Assembly (NCBI GenBank): GCA_016871315.1
Contig: VFZE01000007.1
Span: 1 to 64,000, forward strand
DNA length: 64,000 nt
From: Acidimicrobiia bacterium
GTDB lineage: Bacteria > Acidobacteriota > Terriglobia > Bryobacterales > Bryobacteraceae
Direction of reading: 5' to 3'
Positions within the stretch are counted from its first letter, which is position 1, and the number at the start of each line of letters is the position of its first letter. The position numbers and the translations under genes are program-made. A model generated the notes under the pieces. The model was not told where the DNA came from and did not search any database. It was given only the letters and a program-made list of their open reading frames with translations. This document shows positions 11,309 through 15,183 of the stretch, piece by piece.

Positions 11309-11560
11309 ATGATGACGCGCGTGCAAATTCTGCTGACGGAGGAGCAGGACCGCCGTCTCGAGGCCCTGGCGGCTAAGCGGCGCGAGTCCAAGGGGAAGCT
11401 GATTCGGCGCGCGCTTGATCTGCTGCTCCGGACTGAGCCGGCGGAGGAGGAGCCCCTGCTCAATCTCATCGGTCAGGCTGGTCGGGGAGGCCAGTCGGAC
11501 GCCTCCGGCCGCCACGATCACATCCTGGCCGGTTATGAACGTGCGCGGAACCGCCGATGA
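11309..11560 (+). CDS. Ribbon-helix-helix antitoxin
   Basis: 83 residues. The N-terminal TRVQILLTEEQDRRLEALAA followed by SKGKLIRRALDLLL is a ribbon-helix-helix DNA-binding fold of the CopG/VapB kind; the C-terminal half (ASGRHDHILAGYERARNRR) would bind the toxin. Overlaps the downstream PIN-domain gene by 4 bp, the usual coupled layout. A GAGG site is eight bases before ATG 11309; a second ATG follows directly. Expected to neutralise the toxin and repress its own promoter. Confidence 0.85.
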   Translation: MMTRVQILLTEEQDRRLEALAAKRRESKGKLIRRALDLLLRTEPAEEEPLLNLIGQAGRGGQSDASGRHDHILAGYERARNRR

Positions 11561-12006
11561 CGCCTCGGCGAATCTTCGTCGACACCGGCGCGTGGTTCGC
11601 GGCGCAGGTCGTCGACGATGCACACCACCAGGAAGCAGCCAGTTCCCTAAGAGGTCTGATCGCGCGGCCGATTGTGCTGGTCACGACGAACCACGTCGTG
11701 GGTGAGACCTACACGCTGCTGCGTGTGACTCGTGGGTACGATGCAGGCAGAAAATTCCTCGATTCGCTCGAGCAAACAAAGCGCCTTGAGCGTGTCTTCA
11801 TCAATCAAGACCTGGAGCGGCGCGCCTTCGCCATCCTCGACAAATACCGCGATCATGACTTCAGCTTTGTGGACGCCACCAGCTTTGCGTACATGCGAGC
11901 CGAGCGCATCCGCCACGCTTTTGCATTCGACTCGCACTTTGCCGTTTGCGGATTCGTGCGCGTCCCCGCGGACGCCGGTATGGGACAACTCGGCGGCTTA
12001 GTGTAG
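11557..12006 (+). CDS. PIN-domain toxin (VapC-like)
   Basis: 149 residues. PIN-domain ribonuclease with all four acidic positions: Asp9 in IFVDTGAW, Glu50 in VVGETYTLL, Asp106 in FVDATSFAYM and Asp125 in AFDSHFAV. VapC toxins typically cut tRNA or rRNA when the antitoxin is degraded. Starts within the antitoxin stop (11557-11560). Length and residues suggest an active toxin. The pair lies between two 50-bp repeats. Confidence 0.88.
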   Translation: MTPRRIFVDTGAWFAAQVVDDAHHQEAASSLRGLIARPIVLVTTNHVVGETYTLLRVTRGYDAGRKFLDSLEQTKRLERVFINQDLERRAFAILDKYRDHDFSFVDATSFAYMRAERIRHAFAFDSHFAVCGFVRVPADAGMGQLGGLV

Positions 12007-12655: not shown

Positions 12656-13072
12656 CTACTTTAGTTCGATGTCTTCCCAGTCGCCGCGGATGATGGCTTT
12701 GCGGATGTCGACGGCGGACTTCTTCAGCTTGTGCATCTTATCGGCAAGGAGGACCTCCTTGAGGCAGATCATTCAACCGGCGGAGTGGTCGTCGATGTGG
12801 CAGTGGAGAAGACTGCCGTGTCCGAAGCGCTCACAGTTGCAGTAGCAAGGCTGCTGGATGAGGACGCCGGGGATCTGCTGGGCGATGCGGTAGACCTTCT
12901 GAAGAACGGGGTGCGCGAAGCGGTCCGGGGGAAGGGTCTTGGGGTAGGGCTTGCCGGCTTCGGCGGACTTGGCATAAGGCGGGACCTTTTCGGGTTTGAA
13001 CTTGGGGCCCTGAAAAGCGAGCAGTCCTACAACAAGCCACGCGAAGGCGATGAACACGCGCATCAATACCAT
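12656..13072 (-). CDS. PCYCGC-family protein with in-frame UGA (predicted selenoprotein)
   Basis: Reading from ATG 13072, the frame gives an N-terminal signal sequence or membrane anchor (VFIAFAWLVVGLLAF), then PCYCNC (residues 75-80), GHGSLLHC, HIDDHSAG and a UGA at 12775-12773, then without frame change MICLKEVLLADKMHKLKK and IRKAIIRGDWEDIELK to a TAG at 12656. The part after the UGA matches the family as well as the part before it. In PCYCGC-motif proteins the UGA position is normally the first cysteine of CxxCL, so the read-through product has a U-x-x-C redox motif (Sec100, Cys103). A SECIS-like hairpin follows. The full product is 138 residues; termination at UGA would remove the conserved C-terminal third. 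ATG 13063 is an alternative start. Function of the family is unknown; a redox or metal role outside the cytoplasm is inference. Confidence 0.82.
12745..12761 (-). promoter_or_regulatory. Bacterial SECIS element (predicted)
   Basis: On the mRNA the 17-nt segment CAAGGAGGUCCUCCUUG forms a perfect stem (at least 6 bp, up to 7-8) with a GGUC-containing loop. It starts exactly 11 nt after the UGA at 12775-12773, and its loop lies about 20 nt after it. The minimal Escherichia coli fdhF element, as I recall it, is a 17-nt upper stem-loop 11 nt from the UGA with a GGUC loop bound by SelB. The match in spacing, size and loop is close. Confidence 0.82.
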
Positions 13073-13080
13073 CTTAAGAT
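13051..13080 (+). promoter_or_regulatory. Possible promoter for a leaderless ribBA transcript
   Basis: TGAACA (13051-13056) and TAAGAT (13075-13080) are 18 bases apart and the -10-like box ends six bases before the ribBA ATG, so transcription would begin at about the start codon. There is no ribosome binding site before the ATG. The whole candidate lies inside the 5' end of the divergent selenoprotein gene. Confidence 0.3.
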
Positions 13081-13086
13081 ACAAGT

Positions 13087-14202
13087 ATGGCGTTTGCCAC
13101 CATTCGAGAAGCGGTGGAAGAGTTTCGTGCGGGAAAAATGATCGTCGTGGTGGACGATGAGGACCGCGAAAATGAAGGAGATTTGACGGTGGCGGCAGAG
13201 AAGGTGACGCCGGAAATCATCAATTTCATGGCGACGCATGCGCGGGGGCTGATCTGCCTGGCCTTGGATGCCGAGCGGTGCGAGCGGCTGCAACTGCCGC
13301 TGATGTCGGCGTCGAACACGTCGCGGTTCGGAACGGCCTTTTGCGAGGCGATCGACGCAAGGAACGGAGTGACGACGGGGATTTCGGCATCGGACCGGGC
13401 GCATACGATCCGCGTGGCGATTGCGCCGGAGACGCGGCCGCAGGACCTGGCGCGGCCGGGGCACGTTTTTCCGTTAAAGGCCCGGGAAGGGGGCGTGCTG
13501 GTCCGGGCGGGGCAAACGGAGGCGGCCGTGGATCTGGCGCGGATGGCGGGGCTGGAGCCGGGCGGCGTGATCTGCGAGATCATGAACGACGATGGCACGA
13601 TGAGCCGGGCGGCGGATCTGGAGAAGTTTTGCGGCCGGCACGGGATCAAGATGATTTCGGTGGCGGAGCTGATCCGGCACCGGATGCGGACGGAGCGGAT
13701 CGTGAAGCGGCTGGGGGAAGGGTGTTTGAAGACGCCGCATGGGGAGTTCCGGACGATTGCGTACGGGTCGTCGGTGGATGAGGAGAGTCACCTGGCGTTG
13801 GTTCGCGGAAAGGTCGACGGGGCCGAGGATGTGCTGGTTCGGATGCACTCGCATTGCGGCTACGGCGATGTGTTCGGGTCGACGGAGTGCGAGTGCGGGG
13901 AGGTGGTGAGGAGGTCGCTGGAGCGGATCGCGGAGGCGGGGCGAGGGGTGCTGGTGTATCTGCACCAGACGGGGATGGGGCTGCGGCTGCGGGAGGGGCG
14001 GCTTGTGCCGCATGGGCGGGAGTTCATGCATTACGCGACGGAGGAGGGGCAGAAGCAGCTGCAGCACGAGGTGGGGATCGGGGCGCAGATATTGGCGGAC
14101 TTGGGGTTGCACAGGATTCGGCTTCTGACGAATCATCCGCGGAAGATCGTGGCATTGGAGGGGTTCGGGATCGAGATTGTGGATCAGGTGCCGGTACGGT
14201 GA
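13087..14202 (+). CDS. ribBA: 3,4-dihydroxy-2-butanone 4-phosphate synthase / GTP cyclohydrolase II-like
   Basis: 371 residues, riboflavin pathway. The N-terminal half is an intact RibB domain: VVVDDEDRENEGDL (residues 20-33), GLICLAL, RPGHVFPL, EAAVDLARMAGL and CEIMNDDGTMSR. The C-terminal half (from about 205) has the GTP cyclohydrolase II fold, with zinc cysteines at 257, 268 and 270 (SHC, ECEC) and LLTNHPRKI, but the QEGRGIGL motif reads HQTGMGLRL (293-301) and the catalytic Asp and Arg before YGIGAQIL are missing (QLQHEVGIGAQIL). The second activity is therefore probably lost and the protein may supply only the butanone phosphate. The start matches the family although no ribosome binding site precedes it. 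Confidence 0.9.
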   Translation: MAFATIREAVEEFRAGKMIVVVDDEDRENEGDLTVAAEKVTPEIINFMATHARGLICLALDAERCERLQLPLMSASNTSRFGTAFCEAIDARNGVTTGISASDRAHTIRVAIAPETRPQDLARPGHVFPLKAREGGVLVRAGQTEAAVDLARMAGLEPGGVICEIMNDDGTMSRAADLEKFCGRHGIKMISVAELIRHRMRTERIVKRLGEGCLKTPHGEFRTIAYGSSVDEESHLALVRGKVDGAEDVLVRMHSHCGYGDVFGSTECECGEVVRRSLERIAEAGRGVLVYLHQTGMGLRLREGRLVPHGREFMHYATEEGQKQLQHEVGIGAQILADLGLHRIRLLTNHPRKIVALEGFGIEIVDQVPVR

Positions 14203-14259: not shown

Positions 14260-15183
14260 ATGAAAATGATGATGGCGGGAGTGGTTGGGCTGGTGCTTTC
14301 GCTGCCGGTTTGGGCGGTGGATGCGAGTATCTTGAACCTGGTCATGAATGACGCCAAGGTGGTGATTGGGCTGAACATGGACCGGGTGACGGCTTCCGGC
14401 ATCGGGAAGAGTCTCATGGAGAAGGCGGATTTGGACAAAGGGGAGTTCGGGAAGTTCATTGAGGCGACGGGGTTTGATCCGCGGCGGGATCTGCGGGAGG
14501 CGCTGGTGGCCTCGAAGGGAGAGCATGAGAAGCAGGGGTCGCTGGTGATCGGGCGGGGAAGATTCGAAAGCGGGAGGATTGCGGCGCTGGCCGGGGTCCA
14601 TGGCGGGTCGTCGCAGACGTATAAAGGCGTGACGATTTTGGGGAAGGATGGAGGAGGCGCGGCGTTTTTGGGGACGACGATTGTGGTGGCGGGATCGGTG
14701 GAGGATGTGAAGGCGGCGATCGACCGGCTGCAGGCGGGGGCGAAGCTGGCGCCGGCGCTGGCGGCGAAGATACAGTCGGCGTCGGGGAGCTACGATGCGT
14801 GGATGTTTTCCCTGACGCCTCCAACGATGTTGGGCGGAGGAAGCAAAGGCGGAGCGGCCGGACAGGCGGAGCTTTTGCAGGCGATTGAATCGTTCAGCGG
14901 CGGGATTCGTGTGGCGGGAGAGAATGTGGAGCTGCTCGCGGAAGCGAATGCGCGGTCGGAGAAGGACGCTGGGGCGCTGGTGGATGTGTTCCGGTTCCTG
15001 GTGCAGATGATGGCGGGCAATCAGCCGCCGGATTCGCCGCTCGCGAAGATGCTGGATTCGATGCGCACGAGCGTCGACGGCAAGACCGCGCGGTTCCAGT
15101 TCACCGCTCCGGGAGCGGAGATTCTGAAGCTGATGGACCTGCCGAAGAAGGCGGGCGTGCGTCCGGTGACGGCGGCCCGCTAA
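14260..15183 (+). CDS. Secreted hypothetical protein
   Basis: 307 residues from ATG 14260, with GAAGGGAG just upstream; an earlier in-frame ATG at 14218 adds 14 residues before the signal peptide. A clear signal peptide (MKMMMAGVVGLVLSLPVWA) is followed by a soluble region with no motif I can name; features include alternating hydrophobic segments such as AKVVIGLNMDRVTASGIGKSL and FLGTTIVVAGSVEDVKAAID. The composition recalls proteins that measure or sequester something in the periplasm, but no function is claimed. Lies between ribBA and an aldo/keto reductase on the same strand. Confidence 0.75.
   Translation: MKMMMAGVVGLVLSLPVWAVDASILNLVMNDAKVVIGLNMDRVTASGIGKSLMEKADLDKGEFGKFIEATGFDPRRDLREALVASKGEHEKQGSLVIGRGRFESGRIAALAGVHGGSSQTYKGVTILGKDGGGAAFLGTTIVVAGSVEDVKAAIDRLQAGAKLAPALAAKIQSASGSYDAWMFSLTPPTMLGGGSKGGAAGQAELLQAIESFSGGIRVAGENVELLAEANARSEKDAGALVDVFRFLVQMMAGNQPPDSPLAKMLDSMRTSVDGKTARFQFTAPGAEILKLMDLPKKAGVRPVTAAR

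Follow-up and report, generated by a model that had tools for sequence, protein, structure and literature searches.

The CYCXC family, also named hypothetical protein OS_HP4, has been catalogued as a selenoprotein family since 2007. A 2026 review (PMC13188914) lists it as "CYCXC family protein (hypothetical protein OS_HP4)", with Pfam domain PF13798 and a UxxC motif, and credits its discovery to a study of the symbiotic deltaproteobacterium of a gutless worm (Zhang & Gladyshev 2007). OS_HP4 likewise appears with UxxC in a table of PMC9312934, and selenoproteins were previously known from Acidobacteria (PMC1794560). The same Pfam family includes the PCYCGC-motif lipoproteins of Bacillales (e.g. 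AOT13_14730, PMC13068155), which are proteins of the cell envelope with a conserved PCYCGC motif and further conserved cysteines; in the excerpt of that article the conserved residues are given as cysteines, and selenocysteine (Sec) is not mentioned there.

The window analysed here (64,000 nt, positions 1 to 64,000 of contig VFZE01000007.1) comes from a soil bacterium of the Bryobacteraceae and contains on its minus strand a frame, from 13072 to 12656, that translates as MVLMRVFIAFAW...QQPCYCNCERFGHGSLLHCHIDDHSAG-UGA-MICLKEVLLADKMHKLKKSAVDIRKAIIRGDWEDIELK-TAG. The in-frame UGA is at 12773–12775 and the real stop codon, TAG, at 12656–12658, which agrees with the original prediction of a PCYCNC-containing frame continuing in phase beyond a UGA. 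The ATG is at 13072, with an alternative in-frame ATG at 13063 (MRVFIAFAW...). With the UGA read through, the product is 138 residues long and carries Sec at position 100, and its elements follow in the order hydrophobic N-terminus, QQPCYCNC, GHGSLLHCH, U-MICLKEVLLADKM and TAG. As had been anticipated, an ordinary ORF caller ends the gene at the UGA, giving a product of 99 residues, and this cut removes the UxxC site of what is a real gene, with the same UGA in many acidobacterial genomes.

The PF13798 (PCYCGC) match spans the UGA (residues 54–127, E-value 1e-6, score 29.2 versus a cut-off of 25), and the protein scores 94.3 bits, versus a curated cut-off of 90, with NCBIfam model NF041379 (OS_HP4_CYCXC, "CYCXC family (seleno)protein"). 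Both family hallmarks are present, namely the CYCxC motif within PCYCNC (C76, C78 and C80; 12833–12847) followed by C/UxxC, here UMIC, and the single Sec in UxxC matches the published family tables. The original assignment to the PCYCGC family was thus sound. It had also been proposed that this family was undescribed as a selenoprotein family; however, given the name of NF041379 and the listing of OS_HP4 with UxxC in PMC9312934 and PMC13188914, this part of the proposal falls. A literature search under the name PCYCGC found no papers on a selenoprotein, because the family appears in the literature as OS_HP4 or CYCXC. The gene is a well-supported new member of the CYCXC/OS_HP4 family, in this case from an acidobacterium, in a family that had been discovered earlier.

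Occurrence of the UGA was examined in several samples of relatives. In a first sample of 60 relatives plus the own genome, a homologue was found in 11 genomes; G000, G001, G010, G024, G037 and G058 share the UGA at its column, and G005, G009, G059 and G060 have Cys there. The Cys homologues align so that the UGA replaces the first Cys of CxxC, as originally proposed, and the close homologues share the UGA, with no unrelated stops or frameshifts. A sample of 396 genomes of the phylum added further UGA members, including a distant clade. An alignment-based scan yielded 80 loci; a single-sequence scan of genome contigs retrieved nothing. Among the window and these 80 named acidobacterial loci, which overlap with the other genome samples, there are 24 UGA forms (the window and 23 named loci) versus 57 Cys forms, and the frame stays open past the UGA in all 23 named relatives. 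In the SelA scan, SelA was present in 15 of 15 genomes that carry the UGA in this column, whereas the six genomes lacking SelA all carry Cys forms (6/6). When the Sec/Cys label was placed on the tree, about six changes were needed, two of them forced by well-supported branches, and therefore Sec and Cys have probably been interchanged more than once in the family.

The distant clade mentioned above (L071–L075) belongs to the PCYCGC family but comes from other families of Acidobacteriota; its members carry the UGA at the corresponding position, but the hairpin predicted for them (GUCGCGCGUGACGC, not CAAGGAG...) is a different one. In another homologue, L025 (G032:C58:6833-7159), Cys occupies the usual Sec site and an in-frame UGA occurs at another, variable position (KANH-U-SLLDC), which may reflect an error, gene breakage or a second site of Sec insertion.

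The genome of the window (6.25 Mb, 98 % complete) was searched for the machinery of Sec incorporation, and selA, selB, selC and selD, whose presence had been suggested as a check, were all found. SelA was identified with an E-value of 9e-120, selB scored over its cut-off and the tRNA-Sec has the anticodon TCA (UCA). Gene selD (G000:C12:114032-114955) is itself a selenoprotein gene, with an in-frame UGA in AAG-U-ASKLSPKLL, the Cys/Sec site of SelD. This gene resembles the CYCXC gene in having a UGA with a predicted hairpin downstream, but differs in protein family and in hairpin sequence. Given selA, selB, tRNA-Sec and selD, together with the UGA within selD, UGA is very probably translated as Sec in this genome.

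The UGA is followed by 11 nt (12772–12762) and then by a 17-nt hairpin (12761–12745, minus strand; CAAGGAG-GUC-CUCCUUG) that can fold with seven base pairs and a GUC loop or with six base pairs and a GGUCC loop. Taken alone, the hairpin of the window was not significant in comparison with shuffled sequences (z about −0.6), so the argument for a SECIS element is a comparative one. All seven pairs are kept in 20 of the 23 named UGA loci, and the mean number of stem pairs is 6.8 of 7 in UGA forms versus 3.8 in Cys forms, which are generally devoid of the hairpin. Across about 40 conserved degenerate codon columns from nine UGA homologues, synonymous variation was absent only in the UGA and in AAG GAG and CTC CTT, the codons of the stem, and the loop codon GTN varied. 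This pattern held in 24 sequences, counting the members with the residue in question: AAG in 23/23, GAG in 23/23, CTC in 21/21 and CTT in 23/24. Additionally, homologue L098 shows two-sided changes at the base of the stem (C-G to U-A and A-U to C-G); two changed pairs, as in L098, were reached in 1 of 500 shuffles, with the covariation coming from this one sequence. The stem conservation, the invariant codons and the double changes strongly support both selection on the hairpin at the RNA level and the original prediction of a bacterial SECIS exactly 11 nt after the UGA, even though an Rfam scan returned no SECIS match. The element appears to resemble the minimal SECIS of Escherichia coli fdhF in being a short hairpin, about 11 nt after the UGA and G-rich in its apical part, and differs from it in stem sequence and protein family. 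SelB, carrying the Sec-tRNA(UCA), would recognise this hairpin, so that the ribosome would insert Sec at the UGA and continue for 38 more residues to the TAG.

A Cys (TGC) homologue, L121 (5166-5207), carries a complete 17-nt SECIS-like hairpin (CAAGGAGGTCCTCCTTG) in a genome that keeps SelA, and is most simply seen as a recent change from Sec to Cys with a relic SECIS. Pairs of Sec and Cys members, including this one, are good material for examining the contribution of Sec.

These comparisons bear on the ways in which the UGA could be read. The ending of the gene at the UGA by a standard caller, together with the retention of the CYCxC motif in the resulting 99-residue product, would fit a true stop that yields a truncated CYCXC protein, with the downstream frame as a decaying remnant. 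Nevertheless, the 23 named relatives with the same UGA have the frame open beyond it, codons +10 to +35 after the UGA vary most in their third letters, and dN/dS was below 1 in every case that allowed dS to be calculated. By these measures, the stretch downstream of the UGA is under selection at the protein level, which, together with the constraint on the SECIS codons and the presence of the machinery, makes a true stop highly improbable. Still less probable is a TGC or TGT misread as TGA: the assemblies are drafts and the relatives are mostly metagenome bins, but some two dozen separate genomes would have to share the same erroneous codon with a hairpin exactly 11 nt downstream.

UGA read-through occurs in some bacteria, and the codon might thus specify another amino acid, by general reassignment or by near-cognate read-through. 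UGA still terminates some homologous genes, however, and the alignment of the column with Cys, the SECIS, the complete set of selABCD and the UGA at the Cys/Sec site of selD itself all favour Sec, leaving this explanation with very little probability. True stop, sequencing error and other decoding were all rejected on recurrence, coding selection, SECIS and machinery. We consider that the UGA of this gene is read as Sec with a probability of about 0.97, judging from genomic comparisons. The complete account, in which a CYCXC/OS_HP4 (PF13798) selenoprotein has its UGA decoded via a hairpin SECIS and a redox or soft-metal role in the envelope is deduced for it, appears very likely.

The first 63 nt of the gene (13010–13072) encode a hydrophobic segment, with a predicted helix at residues 2–18, that is a probable signal peptide or membrane anchor. 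Several relatives have lipobox-like or anchor-like N-termini, and the product is probably exported or anchored to the membrane. Eight residues are invariant in 53 aligned homologues (C76, C78, C80, H85, C91, H96, C/U100 and C103). The structure, predicted with confidence (pLDDT 93.6), is small and helical, without strands, which does not correspond to a thioredoxin fold, and sequence and fold searches of the PDB found no solved relative at E ≤ 0.001. The U-x-x-C motif, together with CYCxC and the Cys and His residues, might form a thiol/selenol redox site or a site for soft metals (Cu/Ag/Hg type) in the cell envelope, and we tentatively propose this broad functional class for the protein.

Upstream of the CYCXC gene and in the same orientation, eight loci (L093, L094, L097, L099, L102, L106, L126 and L127; six of them checked with NCBIfam) have a gene for a CusA/CzcA-type heavy-metal efflux transporter, and in L093 and L097 it is accompanied by a cytochrome c gene. 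These neighbours suggest a task in redox chemistry or soft-metal handling at the cell envelope, although the linkage concerns a minority of loci and is absent near the gene of the window, and the analysis of conserved neighbours identified no family-wide partner, with CusA/CzcA in a subset only. An equally tentative proposal is that the protein, anchored in the membrane, serves as a thiol-disulfide reductant by means of U-x-x-C and plays no part in metal handling. UxxC is a usual redox motif of Sec, and Sec and Cys are interchanged within the family; on the other hand, UxxC shares its invariance with CYCxC, a Cys and two His, and eight loci have efflux-pump neighbours. Returning to the redox or soft-metal class, a narrower version of it that we think unlikely would have the acidobacterial Sec branch handle soft metals (Cu/Ag/Hg) in the envelope for CusA/CzcA-type efflux, via a selenol-containing Cys/His/Sec site; its SECIS would be nearly frozen across distant Acidobacteriota, constraining the residues KEVLL, and some lineages would have moved from Sec to Cys leaving a relic hairpin, as in L121.

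The genes flanking the selenoprotein gene (ribBA, an aldo/keto reductase gene, a PIN-domain gene and SRP54) give no hint of its function. Gene ribBA is divergent, and only 14 bp separate its start from the ATG at 13072 (13072–13087), leaving little room for promoters between both starts. An ORF stretch of 307 residues at 14260–15183 (plus strand) had no Pfam match. The PIN-domain gene (11557–12006, plus strand) is preceded by an ORF of 83 aa (11309–11557) that had no NCBIfam match but is ribbon-helix-helix-like, and the pair (11309–12006) is a possible toxin-antitoxin system.
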